Positions 29,032 to 39,320 of a stretch of 39,320 nt of DNA are shown here, in pieces. The notes beneath the pieces were generated by a model. The model was not told the origin of the DNA. It was given only the letters and a program-made list of their open reading frames with translations, and did no database searches. Within the stretch, counting starts at the first letter, position 1. Each line of letters begins with the position of its first letter. The position numbers and the translations under genes are program-made. Location of the stretch: the NCBI GenBank assembly GCA_021820645.1, contig JAKADJ010000002.1, positions 1 to 39,320 on the forward strand. Direction: 5' to 3'. This DNA is from Bacillota bacterium. Its GTDB lineage: Bacteria; Bacillota_E; Sulfobacillia; Sulfobacillales; Sulfobacillaceae.

Positions 29032-30309
29032 CTATTCACCCGCAAAGCGCCAGTAGTCCCGAAAAAATTCCGGATAACTAATCTCAATCGCCTCAGCCCC
29101 TTCGATAACGATCGGACCATCGGCCACAGCGCCCGCTACCGCCAACATCATTGCAATTCGGTGATCTCCCATAGCCTTGACCGAACCCCTATGTACGCGT
29201 TGTCCACCACGCACCGCGAAACCATCCGGGCGTTCTTCGATTTCTATTCCCAGGCTTCGTAAATTATCGGTGGTAGCGCGGATCCTGTCGGTCTCCTTAA
29301 CGCGTAATTCGCCCGCACCAGATACCACCGTGGTCCCCTCCGCATGAGCGCCTAATAATGCCACTAGAGGTAACTCATCGATGAGCCCCGGAACCACGTC
29401 AGCCCCAACGGCAACGCCTTTTAAGGGCGCCCATCCAATCCGGATCTCTCCAATCGGTTCGGGAACTTCCTGGCTCATCGTAAATTCTACGCGAGCTCCC
29501 ATGTTCCGCAACAGACGGTAAAATCCAATCCGCTCCGCATTTAAACTGACGTCCTCGATCACCAGTTGAGAGCCTTCTAATAACACCGCCAAAGCCGCCC
29601 AATACGCTGCACTCGAAGGATCTCCCGGAACGGTGACCGTCAACGCGCTCACGGGACCCGGCGTCACCTTGATCGTGTCAGATTGGATCTCTACGGATGC
29701 TCCCATCGCGCGCAACAATCGTTCGGTATGGTCTCTCGTCGGTAGTACCTCATGGATCGTTAGGGGATCGTCCGCACTTAACCCAGCCAAAATGAGAGCA
29801 GACTTAACTTGCGCCGAGGCCACGGACAGAAAAGATGCTCCGCCCCGATGTGGTCCTCCTTGAATCACGAGCGGGGCCTTGCCAGATTGGCGCCCGCGGA
29901 TGTCCACCCCTAAGGCTCTCAAAGGGTCCATAACCCGCGCCATGGGTCTTTCTCGTAACGATTCGTCCCCCGACAGCACCGTGAGAAATCTGGTTCCCGC
30001 TAAGAGCCCGGTACTGAGCCGCATCGTGGTTCCCGAATTGAGACAATCGATAACAGCCCGTGGCTCTTGCAAATCGTAGTACCCCGGACTTTCTAAAACC
30101 CAGCGTCGCGCGGTTTTTTCTATCAGTTTGACCCCTAAATTTTGGACCACGGCCAGGCTTGCACCGGTGTCTAAGGAGTCTAGCGGGTCTAGGACCTCAC
30201 TCACACCGCGAGCGAGTGCACTAAAGAGTACTCCTCGATGCGTAATCGATTTATCACTCGGAGGCCTAATGCGCCCCGTTAAACGCGTGTTCCATGGACG
30301 TAGTTGCAT
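29032..30309 (-). CDS. aroA: 3-phosphoshikimate 1-carboxyvinyltransferase (EPSP synthase)
   Basis: AroA joins phosphoenolpyruvate to shikimate-3-phosphate, the sixth step of the shikimate pathway. The 425-residue protein shows RPPSDKSITHRG (Lys20), the PEP loop CLNSGTTMRLS, VPGDPSSAAYWAAL, LRVKETDRI and GDHRIAMML. The S-G-T-T form of the PEP loop is that of Firmicute-type enzymes. It is last in aroF-tyrA-aroA, 15 nt past tyrA. Other shikimate genes (aroB, aroQ, aroE, aroK, aroC) are not in the window. Confidence 0.96.
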   Translation of the reverse strand: MQLRPWNTRLTGRIRPPSDKSITHRGVLFSALARGVSEVLDPLDSLDTGASLAVVQNLGVKLIEKTARRWVLESPGYYDLQEPRAVIDCLNSGTTMRLSTGLLAGTRFLTVLSGDESLRERPMARVMDPLRALGVDIRGRQSGKAPLVIQGGPHRGGASFLSVASAQVKSALILAGLSADDPLTIHEVLPTRDHTERLLRAMGASVEIQSDTIKVTPGPVSALTVTVPGDPSSAAYWAALAVLLEGSQLVIEDVSLNAERIGFYRLLRNMGARVEFTMSQEVPEPIGEIRIGWAPLKGVAVGADVVPGLIDELPLVALLGAHAEGTTVVSGAGELRVKETDRIRATTDNLRSLGIEIEERPDGFAVRGGQRVHRGSVKAMGDHRIAMMLAVAGAVADGPIVIEGAEAIEISYPEFFRDYWRFAGE

Positions 30310-30324
30310 GTGGCCACCCCTTTC

Positions 30325-31146
30325 CTATTGCCTCAAGATCGCTTGCCGAACCTGGGCGATGATGTCTTTCCCTGGCAAGCTCTCCCCTTTCTCGAGGGCG
30401 TCTAAGAACTCCTCCAACAAACGGGAATATTGATTGAGTGCTTGTTGTATCGGTCTGCGATTGGCCACTAAAATCTCTTGCCACAATTCCGGATCGCTAG
30501 CGCCCACTCGTGTGGTATCACGAAACCCGCTGCCAGCCAACTGTAATGACGGTGCAGACGGGTCGCCTACACTGTATAACAAAGCTGCTGCAATCAGATA
30601 AGGGAGATGGCTTACCTGTGCAACCATGGTGTCGTGGGTATCCGCGGTTACCACTACGGGCCGCGTTCCCAGAACCTGCATCCAGCGTTGCATCACATCT
30701 TCGTCCGTCGGGACATGCGCATCGATCACCGCACAGGCATATCCCCCAAAGAGTTCGGCTTGGCTCGATGCATAGCCCCGCGACTCCTTACCCGCCATCG
30801 GATGCAACGACAAGAAAGACCAAGGGGCTTTAAGAGCATACAGAGACGCCATGAGTGGGCCTTTCACAGATCCCACCTCGACCATGATTCCCGGGCGCCG
30901 CCGAGGCCGAGCGCTCAAGGCGGTAATCCAACCCGGCACCGTCGCCAGGGGCGTCGCAACCACCACCTCATCCACCAGGTCGAGCCAGTGTGTCCAATCC
31001 CGAACGTCTTCCACAACACCGTCTTCGATAGCCAAACCTAAGCTCCGCACATCGGTGTCGTACCCGAATACCGTGTATCCTTGTTTACGCCAAGCCTTAG
31101 CGATGGAACCTCCAATGAGGCCCAGGCCAATGACTCCCACTTTCAT
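30325..31146 (-). CDS. tyrA: Prephenate dehydrogenase
   Basis: TyrA oxidatively decarboxylates prephenate to 4-hydroxyphenylpyruvate, committing flux to tyrosine. The 273-residue protein has an N-terminal NAD-binding [13 protein letters not shown] motif, [14 protein letters not shown] and the helical C-terminal domain with [15 protein letters not shown]. There is no ACT domain, so direct Tyr feedback may be weak, which makes the Tyr T-box more significant. Its start overlaps the aroF stop as ATGA. Confidence 0.95.
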
Positions 31147-32153
31147 ATGGTTCGGCCGACGGCTTGTGCCACCACGCTCAACGACGCCACTAACTCGGCC
31201 AAGTGTGGTAAATTCAGACTCTGCGGTCCATCGGACAACGCTTCCTGAGGATTGGGGTGTGCCTCAATAATCAGTCCATCAGCGCCAGCTGCGATCCCAG
31301 CGCGAGCCATTGGGGCCACCCAGTTCCATTGACCCGTAGAATGAGACGGATCGATCACGATAGGGAGATGACACACTTGCTTAACCACCGGAATCGCACT
31401 CAGGTCTAACGTGTTTCGTGTCTTTTGCTCGTAAGTCCGGATGCCTCGCTCACAGAGAATGATGTTGGGATTCCCATGCGCGGCAACATATTCGGCCGCC
31501 ATCAACCATTCGTCGATAGTGGCCGCGATTCCCCGCTTGAGTAATACGGGCTTGCCGGTTTGGCCCACAGCCTTTAGCAATTCAAAGTTCTGCATGTTAC
31601 GAGCCCCTATTTGCACGATATCGGCCCATTCTGCGACGTTTCTTAAGCTCTCATGATCCACCGCCTCGGTCACGATCATTAGGCCATACCGCTCACGGGC
31701 TTCAGCTAAAATTTTTAGCCCATCGAGACCCATGCCCTGAAAACTGTATGGTGAAGTCCGCGGCTTATAAGCTCCACCCCGCAGTACCGGAATTCCCATC
31801 CGATGAACCGCCGCTGCCGCCTCCATAACTTGCTCTCGGCTCTCAACCGCACATGGTCCTGCGATAATCACCGCTTTATCGGTCCCAAACTCCACCGGAC
31901 CCACCCGGACCACCGTATTTTCCGGTTGAAAGTCACGGCTCACCAATTTGTATGGCCGTCGTACCGGCACGACTTGTTCTACGGCTTGCATCGACCCCAA
32001 TCTCACGACCTCCTCGGTACGTTCACCAATCACCCCAATAATGGTGCGTTCCACTCCTTGGGACAGGTGAACTTGAAATCCTTCGGCCTTTAAGCGCGTG
32101 GTAACCGCATCGATATCATCGGTACTCGCGTTTTTTGACATTACAATGATCAC
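31143..32153 (-). CDS. aroF: 3-deoxy-7-phosphoheptulonate (DAHP) synthase, type I-beta with FL domain
   Basis: DAHP synthase condenses phosphoenolpyruvate and erythrose-4-phosphate, the first step of the shikimate pathway. The 336-residue protein begins with a ferredoxin-like regulatory domain (about 1-75; [13 protein letters not shown]), then the TIM barrel with [41 protein letters not shown] and [13 protein letters not shown]. In Thermotoga this domain gives Tyr/Phe inhibition. The GTG start at 32153 gives the usual N-terminus. The Tyr-type T-box leader lies immediately upstream, so expression is likely induced when Tyr-tRNA is uncharged. Confidence 0.95.
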
Positions 32154-32200
32154 GACAATCCCGCCTTTTTTTAGTGCTTGCCTGTCTTATTAAAACGCGT

Positions 32201-32238
32201 AAAGGCCCTCATCCCTAAAGCTTAGGGACGAAGGCCTT
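32201..32238 (-). terminator. Attenuator terminator of the aroF T-box
   Basis: AAGGCCTTCGTCCCTAA (32238-32222) pairs with TTTAGGGATGAGGGCCTTT (32219-32201). The following sequence is ACGCGTTTTAAT, so the U-tract is short and interrupted. The 5' arm overlaps the end of the T-box bulge region, as in other leaders. Confidence 0.75.
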
Positions 32239-32476
32239 CTCTCCGCGGTACCACCCTAGTGATCAAGCATTGGCTTGACCCCTCAGTCGACAGCTATCAC
32301 CGTCGCTCCACAATAACGGATGGAATCCGGATTCTCTACTGCCCACTATGGGGTTCGATGCACGTTCTCGGGGGTATAATTCCAGTGTTAGGGTGTCGAC
32401 TTCCACCAATCGTCGATTCTCTGTAACTCCTAGGGCTCTGGTTTCTTCCCGATCATCACTTTGGGTCGATGATATT
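32201..32476 (-). promoter_or_regulatory. T-box leader of aroF-tyrA-aroA, tyrosine specifier
   Basis: The 367 bases between trpA and aroF hold no gene but a complete T-box leader read on the minus strand. It has a stem I distal hairpin with AGAGAA and an apical loop GATTGGTGGAA (about 32425-32397), then the specifier region CTGGAATTATACCC. The conserved T-box AGGGTGGTACCGCGGAG is at 32257-32241, and the terminator follows. The specifier is TAT (32378-32376), one base after GGAA, by ungapped alignment with the trpE leader. Uncharged tRNA-Tyr would promote antitermination. Tyr agrees with the downstream genes. Confidence 0.93.
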
Positions 32477-32482
32477 TCCCGC

Positions 32483-32511
32483 ATGATACCGCGCGTGTGA
32501 CGGCGTGTCAA
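32483..32511 (-). promoter_or_regulatory. Sigma-A promoter of aroF-tyrA-aroA
   Basis: On the minus strand TTGACA (32511-32506) and TATCAT (32488-32483) stand 17 nt apart. The -35 begins 10 nt past the trpA stop, with no terminator between, so trp transcripts may run into this leader. Confidence 0.85.
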
Positions 32512-32520
32512 GACCTTCGT

Positions 32521-33315
32521 CTATTTAGTTTCTAAGGCGTTTCGAAATGAACCGACAAATGCTTGCGCAGCCTCTATCGGATTATCTGGGTGATCTCTTA
32601 TCACTTTGACGAGAGCGCTGCCCACGATTACTCCATCAGCCACTTTCCCGGTTTCCCGGGCTTGTTCCGGGGTGGAAATTCCAAAACCTACCGCAATGGG
32701 AATCTTCACCTGTTCTCGAATTCTAGCCACCAAACCGCCAACGCCCTGGTCCAGATGCGTGCGGGCACCAGTGACTCCCGTGACCGATACCGTATAGACA
32801 AAGCCTTCGGCGCTCCGGATGTTATGAAGGTGGGCATCGGTTGAAGTCGGAGCCACGAACGGAATCATCGCAACGCGATGACGCTTCGAAACTTTCGCTG
32901 CTTCTCGCATTTCAACCCATGGCCAATCAGGCACAATCAAGCCCTGTATCCCGGATCGATGACTGTCCTCAATAAAACGCTCAATGCCACGTCGATAGAT
33001 CGGATTTACATAGGTCAAGAAGACCAAGGGCACAGATACCCTCAGCGCCGCCACCCGATCCAATATTTGTTGCACCTTCACTCCGGCTGCTAGGGCCTCG
33101 GTCGCCGCCTGTTGCAAGATGGGCCCGTCGGCCAGGGGGTCCGAAAATGGCACCCCTATTTCAATCAGGTCCGCGCCTCCGGCCTCCAGCGCCTGCACCA
33201 ATGGTTCCAGGTGATCGAGGCTGGGATACCCGGCCGTAATATAGGGAATCAATGCCGCTCGATGCTCATGCCGCGCCCGCTCAAAAGCGTTCCGTATCGC
33301 CGTGTTAGCCGTCAT
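32521..33315 (-). CDS. trpA: Tryptophan synthase alpha subunit
   Basis: TrpA cleaves indole-3-glycerol phosphate to indole and glyceraldehyde-3-phosphate within the alpha2beta2 complex. The 264-residue protein has [31 protein letters not shown] (catalytic Glu and Asp), GLIVPDWPW and [13 protein letters not shown]. Start choice is ATG 33315, 12 nt from GGAGG; GTG 33318 is an equally possible start. It overlaps trpB by 11 nt and ends the trp operon. Confidence 0.96.
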
Positions 33316-34516
33316 CACGCGCGATCCCCTCCTCATAAGTCGCGACCGCATCCACATCTTTGTCGCCGCGTCCCGACAAATTAATCAGAACTTTAGCCCC
33401 TTGGCGAGACAGTGCGTCACGCTCTTGGATCACCCACGCGACTGCGTGGGCACTTTCTAGTGCCGGGATAATCCCTTCCCACTCTGCTAACCGATGAAAC
33501 GCCGCAAGGGCCTGTCGATCCGTAATCGACTCATAACGCGCTCTGCCCACATCATGGAGGTAGGCATGTTCAGGTCCAACTCCCGGGTAGTCAAGTCCGG
33601 CAGAAATGGAGTGAGCGGGTTGGATTTGTCCATCTTCATCCTGTAATAGATAACTGAGACTCCCATGTAAGATCCCAGGCTCGGCCATTGTAATCGTCGC
33701 CGCATGCCGCCCCGTTTCCACACCATCTCCAGCAGCCTCTATCCCCACGAGGGATACGGGATCATTCCGAAATGCGTAGAAGATCCCCATCGAGTTAGAA
33801 CCGCCACCCACGGGTGCCACGATATGACTCGGCAACCCCCCCGTTAAATGACGAAACTGACGTCGCGCTTCGCGGCCGATAATCGATTGAAAATCTCGAA
33901 CCATCATCGGGTACGGATGCGGACCAACGACCGAGCCAATGACATAAAACGTGTCGCGCACGTTGGTCACCCAGTCACGAATTGCTTCATTAGTCGCATC
34001 TTTAAGCGTACGAGTTCCCGAATGCACCGCATGGACCTCGGCGCCTAATAATTTCATTCGGTATACGTTCAGGGCTTGGCGCTTGACATCTTCTTCGCCC
34101 ATATAGATTTCCGCGTGCAAGCCAAACAACGCCGCTGCCGTGGCCGTTGCCACGCCATGTTGCCCCGCCCCGGTCTCTGCAATGATACGGTGCTTGCCCA
34201 TGCGTTTGGCTAACAGCACTTGTCCCATCGTATTGTTGATCTTGTGGGCCCCCGTATGATTCAGATCTTCGCGCTTAAGATAGACCGGGAATCCTAACTG
34301 TTCCGACATACGAAAGGCCTGCCTGAGTGCCGTAGGGCGCCCCACGTACTCTTTCAATAGGCCCATCCATTCGTGATGAAACGCGCGATCCACTTTGGCT
34401 TCCCGATAAGCCCGGGTAAGCTCATCGAGCGCCGGCATCAATGTTTCCGGCACATACTGTCCTCCGAATCGTCCAAAACGGCCGTGTATATCTGGTACCG
34501 ATTTCATCATAGCCAT
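33305..34516 (-). CDS. trpB: Tryptophan synthase beta subunit
   Basis: TrpB is the PLP enzyme that joins indole and serine to make tryptophan. The 403-residue protein has [15 protein letters not shown], the PLP lysine in [29 protein letters not shown] and the phosphate-binding [13 protein letters not shown] loop. ATG 34516 has GGAGG 7 nt upstream. It overlaps trpF by 10 nt and trpA by 11 nt, consistent with tight coupling. Confidence 0.97.
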
Positions 34517-35067
34517 TGCTTCGCCTCCCTGACAAACTGGCCGATTAACGCCCGATTCTTACTGCCTCCACTCTCCACACCTGAGGAAACATCTACCCCA
34601 TCCGGATGAAGTTCTCGCACCACGAATCCCACGTTGTGTGGATTAAGACCGCCCGCTAACCATACCGGGCGATGCCAGTCTGGCCTCTGCCAGTCGCGGG
34701 CCTGTCCACTACCCGGCTCTATCCCATCGAGCAAGACGATATCGGCCCGCGGATCGAGGTCGGTCGCAATCGCCAGTCGATTGGCAGCATGAGTAGTCTC
34801 AATCCAATCGAACGCACGGCTCCCATGATGCTGGACTGCCACGACTTCCAATTCTGAGAAAATTTCGTCCAATTCGGTGGGCTCCGGCGCCCACACCACG
34901 GCAACGTATTTTCCTGGCACTGCCCTCACAATCGTTTGCGCTTGTTTGATGCTAAGTTGCCGACGGCTCGGGGCCAAAACCAACCCCACGAAGTCAGCCC
35001 CTTGCGAAAAGCTCCACTCCGCCATGCCAGGGTCCTGAATTCCACAAATTTTAACTATGGGAGGCAT
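34507..35067 (-). CDS. trpF: Phosphoribosylanthranilate isomerase
   Basis: TrpF performs the Amadori rearrangement of phosphoribosylanthranilate. The 186-residue protein has VKICGIQDP (catalytic Cys), [34 protein letters not shown] and [15 protein letters not shown] (catalytic Asp and phosphate binding). It is slightly shorter than the usual 200 residues. ATG 35067 has GGGAG 7 nt upstream, inside trpC, with a 17-nt overlap. Confidence 0.94.
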
Positions 35068-35827
35068 GACTTAACTCCCGTAACGATAAACCTCCCCGCA
35101 TCAAAGACTCTCCGACCAGCAGGGCATCATACCCGACGGCAGCAAGATTGATGGCATCTTCTATGGTTCGAATCCCACTTTCGGCGACCTTGACGACCGA
35201 CGCCGGCAATAACTTGGCCGCCTCCTGAGATAATTCCAACCGCGTCTCAAAGGTGTCCAAGTCCCGATTGTTGACCCCCACAATATGGGCCCCGACCTCC
35301 AACGCCGCCTCCACTTCGGCCATGGCATGGACTTCCACCAGGGCCTCAAGCCCCAGTGCCGATGCCGTCTGCCAAAGGTCACGAAGCCGGTTGCGGTCCT
35401 CAATAATCCGTACAATTAAAAGCACCGCGTCAGCCCCCGCAGCACGGCTTTGATACAGTTGGACCGGATCTCGAACGAAATCCTTGCGCAGCACCGGCAC
35501 TCTTACGGATTCCCGAACCGCCATGAGGTGCTCCAGTTCTCCGGCGAAGAAATGGGGCTCAGTGAGGACCGAAATGGCCGCCGCGCCGGTCGCCTCATAC
35601 GACTGAGCCTGCCGGATTGGATCGTATGACTCCGTAAGCCATCCTTTGGAAGGAGAACGATGCTTACACTCGGCAATGACCCTGATGCTGGACTCCCGGT
35701 GCTGCAACGCAGCCGACAAAGACCTCACCGGCGGCATCATTTGTGCGCGGTTGATTAAGTAGGTCTCCACAGATTGCAGGCGTTTGACCCGTTCATCCAC
35801 TGCCGTAACAATGTCTTCCAAGAACAT
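35051..35827 (-). CDS. trpC: Indole-3-glycerol phosphate synthase
   Basis: TrpC closes the indole ring from carboxyphenylamino-deoxyribulose phosphate. The 258-residue TIM barrel has RVIAECKHRSPSKG (catalytic Glu and Lys), AAAISVLTEPHFFAG, PVLRKDFVRDPVQLYQ, VGVNNRDLDTFETRLE and VAESGIRTIEDA. The start ATG 35827 is preceded by AGGAG at about 12 nt, a longer spacing than its neighbours. It lies 25 nt past trpD and overlaps trpF. Confidence 0.96.
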   Translation of the reverse strand: MFLEDIVTAVDERVKRLQSVETYLINRAQMMPPVRSLSAALQHRESSIRVIAECKHRSPSKGWLTESYDPIRQAQSYEATGAAAISVLTEPHFFAGELEHLMAVRESVRVPVLRKDFVRDPVQLYQSRAAGADAVLLIVRIIEDRNRLRDLWQTASALGLEALVEVHAMAEVEAALEVGAHIVGVNNRDLDTFETRLELSQEAAKLLPASVVKVAESGIRTIEDAINLAAVGYDALLVGESLMRGGLSLRELSHASHS

Positions 35828-35852
35828 GGAATCGGACCACTCCTTTCTATTT

Positions 35853-36884
35853 TTAAGCTTCTTCGACCTTGGGGCCTTCGGTGATTAACCGATGCAATAC
35901 CGCTTCTGCACGGCCGGATGCAATAGCCTCACGCGCCAGCGCCACTCCTTCGGATAGTTTGGAGGCTGCCCGTGCTGCAAAGAGAGCCACTCCGGCGTTG
36001 GCTAAAACCATATCGAGATAAGGACTGGGCACCCCTTTTAGAACCTCACGACAAATTTCAGCATTGGTAGCGGGATCGCCGCCGACAATGGCCTCTTTAG
36101 GATAACGTGGCAGTCTCAGATCGTCGGGATCTAGTATTCCATAGCTGACCATCCCTCTGTCGACGGCACCATACTGGGTTGGACCGGACAAAGACACTTC
36201 ATCCAGGCCACCATCCCCATGTACTACCAGGGCATGGTCCGTTCCGAGCCGGGCCAACACCTCCGTCATCGGTTTCACCCAGTCAGGACTAAACACCCCT
36301 AACAGTTGGCGTTCAGGATTGACGGGGTTCGTTAACGGTCCCAACACATTAAACACCGTACGCACCCCCAGTTCGCGCCGAGTCTCGGCGGCATGGCGCA
36401 TCGAGGTATGGACTTGTTGCGCGAATAAGAATCCAAATCCCACTTCATCGATCGAACGTGCGACGGTTGCCGGATCCTGGGTAATGGGTACACCGAGCGC
36501 CTCCAAAAGATCCGCACTCCCACTTTTAGAGGTCGCAGACCGATTCCCATGTTTCGCCACTGCGACCCCGGCTCCCGCAACCACCAACGCCGACACCGTA
36601 GAGACATTGAAGGAATAGGACCGATCCCCCCCGGTACCACAAGTGTCTAACACCGGGCGCCGTGTCACGGGAACCTTGATCGCATGATCCCGCATGGCTC
36701 GGGCAAAACCGGTTAACTCATCAATCGTTTCGCCTCGCACCCGCATTGCCATCAAAATCCCGGCGAGCTTGACCGCACTGACAGTTCCACTCATGATGGC
36801 GTCCATCAAGCGATAGGCCTCGTATTCCGAAAGACGATGTCCTTCGCTGAGTTTTTGCAAGTCCACTCCAATTTGGTCAATCAT
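35853..36884 (-). CDS. trpD: Anthranilate phosphoribosyltransferase
   Basis: TrpD joins anthranilate and phosphoribosyl pyrophosphate. The 343-residue protein has DTCGTGGDRSYSFNVST (PRPP loop), VAKHGNRSATSKSGSADLLEALG, RRELGVRTVFNVLGPLTNP and HGDGGLDEVSLSG. ATG 36884 follows a GAGG at about 9 nt. It is a separate protein from TrpG (not fused as in enterics), 36 nt downstream of it. Confidence 0.96.
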   Translation of the reverse strand: MIDQIGVDLQKLSEGHRLSEYEAYRLMDAIMSGTVSAVKLAGILMAMRVRGETIDELTGFARAMRDHAIKVPVTRRPVLDTCGTGGDRSYSFNVSTVSALVVAGAGVAVAKHGNRSATSKSGSADLLEALGVPITQDPATVARSIDEVGFGFLFAQQVHTSMRHAAETRRELGVRTVFNVLGPLTNPVNPERQLLGVFSPDWVKPMTEVLARLGTDHALVVHGDGGLDEVSLSGPTQYGAVDRGMVSYGILDPDDLRLPRYPKEAIVGGDPATNAEICREVLKGVPSPYLDMVLANAGVALFAARAASKLSEGVALAREAIASGRAEAVLHRLITEGPKVEEA

Positions 36885-36920
36885 CGGCGGCGTCCTCTCC
36901 CTCTGTCACAGTGTTGTACG

Positions 36921-37511
36921 CTATTTTTGGCCCGCAGCAAATCGAAGGCTCGGCAGGGTCACAAAATTCCGAAGGATTTGCATGCCATCTGGAGTCAAAA
37001 TCGATTCGGGATGGAACTGAATCCCAAAAACCGGAAAACGACGATGCGACACCGCCATGATGGTTCCATCATCGCTCTTTGCAGTAATTGCCAGAGGTCC
37101 TTTGGGATCTACCTCAATAGCAAGCGAGTGATACCGGCCCGCTAAAAAATCTTGGGGGATGCCGGCTAAGATTCCGCTCCCATCGTGATGGATACGATCC
37201 TCTTTGCCATGCATCAAACGGACCGCGGGCACTACTTGGCCACCGTAGGCGACTCCGATGGCTTGGTGGCCGAGGCACACTCCTAAAAGAGGAATTTCTG
37301 ACCCGAGACGTTGAATTAGGTCCACGACCATCCCCGCGTCCTCAGGTCGTCCCGGTCCCGGAGAAATGACAATTTGCTGGGGACCGAGGGACCGGATCTG
37401 GTCCACCATGACTTCATCGTTTCGCACCACCACCACGTCCTGGTCCAACATTCCAAGATATTGCACCAAGTTAAACGTAAACGAGTCGTAGTTATCGATG
37501 ACCAAAATCAC
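36921..37511 (-). CDS. trpG: Anthranilate synthase glutaminase component
   Basis: TrpG supplies ammonia from glutamine to TrpE. The 196-residue class I amidotransferase has VISPGPGRPEDAG, the nucleophile in LGVCLGHQAIG and the His-Glu pair in GIQFHPESIL. GTG 37511 is chosen: it gives the canonical N-terminus MILVIDNYDSF, has GGAGG 7 nt upstream and overlaps the trpE stop as GTGA. The ATG at 37517 is only 1 nt from that binding site. In Bacillus this subunit is shared with folate synthesis (PabA); whether that is so here is unknown. Confidence 0.96.
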   Translation of the reverse strand: MILVIDNYDSFTFNLVQYLGMLDQDVVVVRNDEVMVDQIRSLGPQQIVISPGPGRPEDAGMVVDLIQRLGSEIPLLGVCLGHQAIGVAYGGQVVPAVRLMHGKEDRIHHDGSGILAGIPQDFLAGRYHSLAIEVDPKGPLAITAKSDDGTIMAVSHRRFPVFGIQFHPESILTPDGMQILRNFVTLPSLRFAAGQK

Positions 37512-38956
37512 AGCCATTCCTCCCCGCCAGGCTCCAAAACCGACAAGGCCGCACTCGCCTTGTTCAAGGATTCTTGAAACTCCCGATCCACGTTCGAATC
37601 GGCAACGATACCGCCTCCCGCTTGGACAATGACGTGCCCATCTGCGATATCCAAGGTCCGAATGGTGATACAGGTATCCAGATCTCCCGAGTGCGCAAAA
37701 TACCCCACCACGCCCCCATAAGTACCCCGAGCGCTGGGTTCCAATTCCTCAATCAGTTCCATAGCCCGAATCTTGGGCGCGCCGGTTAAGGTCCCGGCTG
37801 GAAACGATGCAGCCAGCGCATCTAGTGCATCACGGTCCGGGATCAAATGCCCTTGAACTTCCGAGACAATGTGCATTACATGGGAGTATCGCTCTTGTTG
37901 CATAAACTCGGTGACCTCGATGGTGCCATACTCGGAGACCCGCCCTAAATCGTTACGCGCCAAATCCACTAACATCACGTGTTCGGCTCGTTCTTTGGGA
38001 TCCTCAATCAGTTCTTCCCAGAGTGATTGGTCTTCCTGGGGGGATTTGCCTCGCGGTCTAGTTCCCGCAATCGGCCGATTACTCACCACACCATTCTTTA
38101 CCCGGACCAATGCTTCAGGGGACGCTCCCACCAACGTTCGACGCGGTGTTTCGAGATAGAACAGATACGGTGAGGGATTAATATGACGCAACTTGCGATA
38201 CAGGTTAAAGGGATCCCCGACGATGTCCGTCGAAAGACTTTGGGACAGTACCACCTGAAAAATGTCCCCTGCCACGATATGCTCCTTAGCACGCAAGATC
38301 ATTTGGTCATAGTGATCCCGATCGAGGTTAGGCACGACGGGTCCCACCCGTTGCACCCGAGGTTCTGCCAACATCAGCGGCTGACGCAATCCCTCGACCA
38401 GCATTTGAAGACGCGTCTTAGCTTGATCGACTTGCTCTCGGGCACTTTCTACAATCACCGTTACTTGGTGACGGGCATGGTCGAACGCCACCACAGCCTT
38501 GGGCCACACCCACTCCCAATCCGGCCCGCGTTTGGCATGGCGTCGGGGAAGCTTTTCCAGTCGCCGAACCCATTCATAACCAAAATAGCCGATGGCCCCC
38601 CCAGAAAAAGGTAGCTCTATAGACGCGGGGACTTCAATACGTTGCCTTAAAGCCTGTTGCCGCAAAAGAATCAAGGGGTCATCCGCGAGTTGGGTTCCCT
38701 CCGGCCCGACCAACACGGCTTGCCCATCCGCTTCGAGCAATCTCGCCCATTCTCCGATGCCGATGAAAGAAAAACGCGCAATCTTTTCGTCACCTTCAAC
38801 ACTTTCCAACAAGGTATGGGCCCCGAAGGGTCTCAATCGCAAAAATGCTGAAATCGGCGTAATTTGATCAACTATATAACGCTGCACGACAGCGACATAA
38901 GAACCAGTGCCACCATCCCAAACGTCCATACCTCCGCTTGCCTCAAAAAATCCCAT
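37508..38956 (-). CDS. trpE: Anthranilate synthase component I
   Basis: TrpE makes anthranilate from chorismate, the first committed step to tryptophan. The 482-residue protein has the feedback-site motif LLESVEGDEKIARFSFIG near the N-terminus, so Trp inhibition is likely. It also has the chorismate-binding core (LVGASPEALVRV, RPIAGTRPRG, ERAEHVMLVDLARNDLGRV, FPAGTLTGAPKIRAM, IVQAGGGIVADS). ATG 38956 has GGAGG 6 nt upstream; reading from 38971 puts the binding site inside the gene. It is first of trpEGDCFBA, behind a Trp-type T-box. Confidence 0.97.
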   Translation of the reverse strand: MGFFEASGGMDVWDGGTGSYVAVVQRYIVDQITPISAFLRLRPFGAHTLLESVEGDEKIARFSFIGIGEWARLLEADGQAVLVGPEGTQLADDPLILLRQQALRQRIEVPASIELPFSGGAIGYFGYEWVRRLEKLPRRHAKRGPDWEWVWPKAVVAFDHARHQVTVIVESAREQVDQAKTRLQMLVEGLRQPLMLAEPRVQRVGPVVPNLDRDHYDQMILRAKEHIVAGDIFQVVLSQSLSTDIVGDPFNLYRKLRHINPSPYLFYLETPRRTLVGASPEALVRVKNGVVSNRPIAGTRPRGKSPQEDQSLWEELIEDPKERAEHVMLVDLARNDLGRVSEYGTIEVTEFMQQERYSHVMHIVSEVQGHLIPDRDALDALAASFPAGTLTGAPKIRAMELIEELEPSARGTYGGVVGYFAHSGDLDTCITIRTLDIADGHVIVQAGGGIVADSNVDREFQESLNKASAALSVLEPGGEEWL

Positions 38957-38970
38957 GATTTCCCTCCGCA

Positions 38971-39008
38971 AAAATAAAAATACCTTCCTCCCACCTAGGG
39001 ACGAAGGT
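38971..39008 (-). terminator. Attenuator terminator of the trp T-box
   Basis: ACCTTCGTCCC (39008-38998) pairs with the GGGAGGAAGGT arm ending at 38982, followed on the minus strand by ATTTTTATTTTT. The 5' arm begins just after the T-box sequence, so the antiterminator and terminator are mutually exclusive. Confidence 0.9.
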
Positions 39009-39245
39009 TACTCCGCGGTACCACCCTGATTAGACTCTTACGAGTCTCTCTCATACAATACAGGACGAATCCGATATTGTCTTCCAGAATAACGGTGGAA
39101 GAATCCGGCCAAGCCTACAATTATTTCGGTTGGCAGCTCATGGGTCCATTCCCAATGGTCGGTCTCGCCGATCTTTCACCGTTATCGGCTCGCTGGGGAG
39201 ACTTTGCAGTGGTACTCTTCCCACTCATCGCAGATCCATTCAATT
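38971..39245 (-). promoter_or_regulatory. T-box leader of trp operon, tryptophan specifier
   Basis: The 364 bases upstream of trpE hold no gene but a T-box leader on the minus strand. It has a stem I distal hairpin (AGCGAG, CCGAT, loop AACGGTGAAAG, ATCGG), the specifier region TTGGGAATGGACCC, the conserved T-box AGGGTGGTACCGCGGAG (39027-39011) and a terminator. The specifier is TGG (39148-39146), encoding Trp, matching the operon. Uncharged tRNA-Trp would favour readthrough into trpEGDCFBA. This replaces the TRAP or leader-peptide control used by other bacteria. Confidence 0.94.
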
Positions 39246-39251
39246 GAAAAC

Positions 39252-39280
39252 AGTATAGTGATTAGTCGCGACGCTGTCAA
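39252..39280 (-). promoter_or_regulatory. Sigma-A promoter of the trp operon
   Basis: On the minus strand TTGACA (39280-39275) and TATACT (39257-39252) are separated by 17 nt. This is a perfect -35 and a five-of-six -10, one of the strongest promoters in the window. Confidence 0.92.
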
Positions 39281-39320
39281 CGCGCATATTGCGATAATTT
39301 GGGTAGCATTTTTGAACAGT

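Follow-up and report, generated by a model that had tools for sequence, protein, structure and literature searches.

In Escherichia coli the 3-deoxy-D-arabino-heptulosonate 7-phosphate (DAHP) synthases are amino-acid-specific, aroF answering to Tyr and aroG to Phe. Among the Bacillota, passages of PMC12452182 describe trp operons that carry either one T-box or T-boxes in tandem, and according to passages of PMC2494555 a Tyr T-box precedes genes of tyrosine biosynthesis in the Bacillus cereus group. Here, we analysed a stretch of 39,320 nucleotides (the window; contig JAKADJ010000002.1 of assembly GCA_021820645.1, positions 1 to 39,320) from a bacterium of the Sulfobacillaceae, in which a contiguous aromatic gene cluster very probably carries two transcriptional T-box riboswitches in series, the first reading Trp (UGG) and the second Tyr (UAC). 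As far as those passages go, the element, the UGG specifier and the genes match the Trp T-box before Bacillota trp operons, whereas here a single T-box precedes the operon and another, reading Tyr, follows immediately after trpA. In the Bacillus cereus group a Tyr T-box likewise precedes genes that take the shikimate pathway on to Tyr, according to the passages cited, but here it stands on aroF-tyrA-aroA, adjoins a Trp-read trp operon and scores below the Rfam cut-off. Control of the entry enzyme is split by amino acid as in E. coli, for example in a related genome (G018) where one copy is Tyr-read and the other Phe-read, but the sensor is a tRNA-binding RNA in place of a repressor protein. 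The kind of regulation is already known, a standard bacterial control that recurs in related genomes, and its novelty is modest; it offers a family-wide example of amino-acid-specific control over adjacent aromatic units. Literature searches of titles and some passages returned no title on this Trp/Tyr pair, although we do not claim its absence from print.

Two T-box leaders in one aromatic cluster

Direct support comes from both elements, both specifiers, promoter-like sites and competing hairpins, all on the minus strand:

39252..39280, minus strand: promoter-like site of the trp leader, TTGACA-17-TATACT, sigma-70-like, 11 of 12 consensus bases
38994..39237, minus strand: T-box leader of trpE, RF00230, 122.3 bits (cut-off 93)
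39146..39148, minus strand: Trp specifier UGG, one base ahead of helix GUGGG/CCCAU
39020..39023, minus strand: T-box bulge UGGU, read from sequence, wobble with G73 of tRNA-Trp (tRNA ends GCCA)
38983..39007, minus strand: terminator hairpin, then U run, from sequence and fold
32483..32511, minus strand: promoter-like site of the aroF leader, TTGACA-17-TATCAT, sigma-70-like, 11 of 12 consensus bases
32221..32465, minus strand: T-box leader of aroF, RF00230, 85.6 bits, E 2.8e-19, conserved fold
32374..32376, minus strand: Tyr specifier UAC by helix register; 34 of 35 leaders UAC, one UUC
32250..32253, minus strand: T-box bulge UGGU, pairing with A73 of tRNA-Tyr(gta) (tRNA ends ACCA); UGGU in 35/35 aroF leaders
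32201..32238, minus strand: aroF leader terminator hairpin, U run broken; the stretch folds at -30.7 kcal/mol

At gathering scores, Rfam matched the window only once, at the trpE T-box (39237-38994, 122.3 bits, E 8.3e-27); the aroF leader was located by an E-value scan of 32100-32560, not by gathering score. Two T-boxes directly upstream of trpE and aroF on the minus strand had been proposed in an earlier note made from the sequence alone, and with E-values of 8.3e-27 and 2.8e-19 neither match is due to chance. Both leaders contain the T-box core GGTGGTACCGCG, with the UGGN bulge inside the predicted antiterminator, and in both the folding predicts antiterminator and terminator hairpins that compete for bases in common. 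Promoter-like sites are enriched before trpE (three in 38900-39320 against 0.5 expected), and a site with at least 10 of 12 bases lies within 75 bases before all 35 aroF leaders tested (of 39), compared with 40 of 7,000 shuffled stretches.

The set of aroF leaders was drawn from the window and 40 stretches of relatives, which yielded 39 leaders including that of the window; two stretches (L201 and L203) have no T-box core before aroF and lie outside the set. A strict helix pattern fits 35 of the 39, among them one near-identical pair and one paralogue, and the four that were dropped (L200, L202, L204 and L205) come from more distant genomes. Across the 35, the T-box core is near invariant, the Stem II AGUA is invariant (alignment A1) and both partners have changed in 34 of 54 predicted pairs.

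Assignment of the first leader to Trp, as in the earlier note, is borne out by UGG ahead of the helix in all 31 trp leaders, window included, each of which reads GAATGG, one base and the helix strand, and each of which, that of trpE among them, has the specifier-loop AGUA (S-turn) of Stem I. The tRNA-Trp(cca) of the same genome has G73, as do 29 of 30 loci found by ARAGORN in the relatives and this genome; the remaining one (GGCC) is probably a 72-base partial match.

The aroF specifier

Comparing the quoted strings without gaps (TTGGGAATGGACCC against CTGGAATTATACCC, both present in the window), the earlier note had set TGG opposite TAT and taken the specifier as fixed in both leaders. The two strings match at ACCC, but in aroF the lower helix UCGGG/CCCGA starts two bases later: five C precede the G, and opposite a UCGGG strand the helix is formed by the last three C plus GA. 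The comparison thus slips by two bases, and by structure TGG faces TAC. Given this helix register and the rule in the TBDB paper (PMC7778990, in part) that, counted from the 3' end of the bulge, the specifier occupies bases 2 to 4, UAC falls at 32376-32374, followed by C. In this frame the 35 aroF leaders read UAC 34 times and UUC once (the paralogue), whereas two bases away the same leaders read CGU in 32, UAU in two (the window and its sister G001) and CAU in one. The helix columns of alignment A1 are 100% paired in the UAC register, and 11 of the 34 distinct rows carry changes from C-G to U-A; a shift of -2, into the UAU register, leaves them 71.3% paired with zero double changes. We conclude from the aligned leaders that the aroF specifier is UAC, so that the codon and frame of the earlier note are corrected while its amino acid stands.

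The alternative, that UAU (32376-32378) is the specifier and is separated from the lower helix by three bases, draws on the single-sequence Rfam alignment, which sets UAU in the specifier columns; this speaks against our frame, although the posterior there is low (digits 5-7) and a two-base insertion "cc" follows close behind. A check of the frame by covariance model, as the earlier note had envisaged, therefore agrees with UAU for the single sequence, while the relatives shift it by two bases and leave it Tyr. The valS leader of the same genome also seems by eye to share a three-base spacing, and that of leuS has two, which means that spacing in one sequence is no proof. Set against this are the helix register, the rarity of UAU in that frame among the relatives and its share of Tyr specifiers in the consulted part of TBDB (UAU 0.01, UAC 0.99), and because of the 35-leader comparison and the register we override the Rfam placement and regard UAU as unlikely. 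Where a C run precedes the helix, an ungapped comparison of two leaders, or even a single-sequence covariance alignment, can shift the specifier by two bases, and relatives settle the matter. A passage of the review PMC7583486 gives a purine as the base 3' of the specifier; unlike this rule, the aroF leaders have C in 30 of 35 (A in three, G in two), and 9 of 21 trp leaders have C or T.

Weight of the evidence against two working T-boxes

Several further observations weigh against two T-box switches. The aroF leader scores 85.6 bits against an RF00230 cut-off of 93, with a match spanning the full model (1-219), and its terminator stem is strong but the U run is broken. Neither terminator hairpin, that of the aroF leader or that of the trpE leader, was among the outputs of a simple consensus terminator scan, and no Stem I AGUA was found within eight bases of the lower helix in any of the 35 testable aroF leaders. 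The UGGU of the trp leader faces G73 of tRNA-Trp by wobble only, though the TBDB paper (PMC7778990, in the part consulted) gives this U/G73 wobble for 46% of Trp T-boxes, and the pairing was dropped as a sign of error. Finally, T-box control of aroF is not universal, with no T-box core in 11 of 20 additional, more distant stretches. We nevertheless file the aroF leader as a T-box, the cut-off being a threshold for curation and the leader having the structural features of the class. The Stem I AGUA is also absent from 8 of the 12 other T-boxes of the same genome, and its absence is for that reason rated as variation within the class, not as a defining trait. Its loss looks derived, to judge from the sequences, because AGUA occurs farther up in one aroF leader (L194) and within the stretch of two of the dropped leaders (L204 and L205).

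The low score, the missing AGUA and the broken U run could also be read as marks of a decayed, non-functional T-box before aroF. Decay of this kind is hard to reconcile with double-sided changes in 34 of 54 pairs around a near-invariant core, or with a promoter-like site retained before 35 of 35 leaders, and the leader falls under the Rfam cut-off in all six genomes examined (85.6, 88.5, 82.0, 78.7, 76.8 and 75.6 bits), a shared trait and not a local decay; we hold it to be very unlikely. For the other leader, AUG overlaps UGG within GAAUGG, and a UGGU bulge would fit A73 of tRNA-Met where tRNA-Trp has G73, so that a Met-reading switch could be imagined. Yet UGG stands at the usual place one base ahead of the helix, the genes downstream are trp genes, and 21 of the 31 trp leaders have UGGC, which fits G73 and not A73 (the other 10 have UGGU), leaving the Met reading with a negligible chance. 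Recent copying of one leader into the other was likewise rejected, given that the aroF leaders lack both the AGUA and the GAA that are kept around the trp specifier.

Gene order and coupling of the two switches

Open reading frames (ORFs) and Pfam families agree with the gene content named in the earlier note, trpEGDCFBA followed by aroF-tyrA-aroA, all on the minus strand:

37508..38971, minus strand: trpE (PF00425 + PF04715); translation probably starts at ATG 38956, preceded by GGAGG
36921..37517, minus strand: trpG (PF00117)
35853..36884, minus strand: trpD (PF00591 + PF02885)
35051..35827, minus strand: trpC (PF00218)
34507..35067, minus strand: trpF (PF00697)
33305..34516, minus strand: trpB (PF00291)
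32521..33318, minus strand: trpA (PF00290), ORF listed from 33357
31143..32153, minus strand: aroF, DAHP synthase with ferredoxin-like regulatory domain (PF00793 + PF18152)
30325..31146, minus strand: tyrA, prephenate dehydrogenase (PF02153 + PF20463)
29032..30309, minus strand: aroA, 5-enolpyruvylshikimate-3-phosphate synthase (PF00275)

By the established T-box mechanism (PMC7583486, in part), uncharged tRNA-Trp would let polymerase starting at the promoter of the trp leader pass the terminator into trpEGDCFBA, and the Tyr switch, from its own promoter just behind trpA, would read tRNA-Tyr and gate aroF-tyrA-aroA. The aroF promoter of the window starts about ten bases past the trpA stop, and no terminator was found in this interval, which leaves no room for one; trp transcripts should therefore run on into the aroF leader, where they would end at or pass the Tyr switch. 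This would probably amount to a one-way coupling, with the Tyr leader both terminating the trp operon and gating aroF, and Trp hunger could feed aroF only if Tyr were also short. The earlier picture of two separately sensed halves thus holds for the two units and their two specifiers, but the halves are probably asymmetric, since the Tyr switch would lie in the path of trp transcripts as well.

The junction recurs in the relatives: counting the window, 33 of 39 rows have fewer than 600 bases between the stop codon of trpA and the aroF leader. Within the 33, the distance is 43-93 bases in 29 and 2, 149, 456 and 517 in the others, that of two bases probably reflecting a misplaced start. It is 3,390 bases in one further stretch (L185), and no trpA was found in five (L186, L199, L200, L202 and L205). 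It is possible, though we would not yet call it probable, that the Tyr switch is the only terminator of the trp operon, making the cluster a serial two-input gate, and that the aroF leaders represent a compact, AGUA-less Tyr/Phe form of T-box that is missed at the Rfam cut-off and in which UAC and UUC differ by one base. If the serial gate held, aroF, the entry to all aromatic synthesis, would receive transcripts from its own promoter and, under Trp hunger, from trp readthrough, in both cases only when Tyr is short. As the aroF leaders lie below the Rfam cut-off in the six genomes examined, standard annotation would probably show the Trp half only.

Variation among relatives

Two relatives have exchanged the specifier. 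The leader of a second DAHP synthase gene in G018 (L199) reads UUC-A-CCCG, one base from UAC and in the same columns, and in G035 (L187, C1:1544156-1544760) two T-boxes stand in series before aroF, UUC (37.1 bits) then UAC (76.8 bits), each behind its own TTGACA promoter-like site, and the first is followed by a hairpin and U run. As read from these sequences, neither swap leaves the aromatic amino acids, as expected under the corrected frame. The DAHP synthase behind the Phe-reading T-box of G018 (L199/L287, G018:C152:16449-17636) has no ferredoxin-like domain, and the next ORF looks acetyltransferase-like by eye.

Among the four dropped leaders, a looser script placed UAC a single base ahead of the helix in two (L202 and L205) and picked ACC, with UAC one base earlier, in L200; it was without result for L204, whose sequence contains CTACCTCCGC. 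Further out, a T-box core lies upstream of aroF in nine of the 20 additional stretches. Four of these stretches (L207, L209, L211 and L213) have a leader reading UAUACCCCCGG, for which the script's choice of helix gives ACC with UAC one base earlier, and in four (L218, L219, L221 and L222) the core lies about 480 to 1,410 bases from aroF and may belong to another gene. PF18152 is absent from all four AroF proteins scanned from genera g4, g5 and g7 (L188, L190, L191 and L193), where the Tyr T-box persists; in these cases control at the RNA level may have taken over from feedback inhibition.

Other T-boxes of the genome

The genome (assembly 83.6% complete) has thirteen T-boxes. A generic script resolved the specifiers of trpE, aroF, pheS, metG and an aminotransferase, the remainder being read by eye, and the genes behind the 11 other leaders were named by eye from translations, not by family searches. 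In all 11, a codon for the amino acid of the downstream gene lies at or near the specifier position, mostly as judged by eye: UUC for pheS, AUG for metG, UCC for mtnA-serS, AUC for ileS, UCC (Ser) for a class V aminotransferase, GUC for valS, CUC for ilvN/ilvC, CUC for leuS, GAU for aspS, CCA for proC and ACC for thrS. Wherever the tRNA was recovered, the UGGN bulge fits the discriminator base, with UGGA/U73 for Thr, UGGC/G73 for Asp, UGGC/G73 in one Ser leader and a UGGU wobble in the other, UGGU/A73 for Met, Val, Leu, Pro and Tyr, and the UGGU wobble for Trp. The tRNA-Ile (GAU) and tRNA-Phe were not among the tRNAs recovered from this genome, which concerns the UGGA of ileS and the UGGU of pheS; the bulge of the ileS T-box (C46:71169-71396, minus strand, L005) would call for U73.

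The Ser T-box (UCC) before mtnA and then serS (L004/L288, C11:8983-9180, minus strand) joins methionine salvage to seryl-tRNA synthetase; UCC before mtnA had seemed an odd case, which was resolved by serS lying behind mtnA. The GUC of the valS leader (L008, C37:16357-16574), about three bases from the lower helix, is outside the usual spacing. Just upstream of the ilvN/ilvC T-box (L009 1868-1763, minus strand, C81) lies a weak match to the guanidine-I riboswitch, 36.3 bits against a cut-off of 63; a ppGpp riboswitch, which belongs to the same superfamily (ykkC), would presumably be the better fit.

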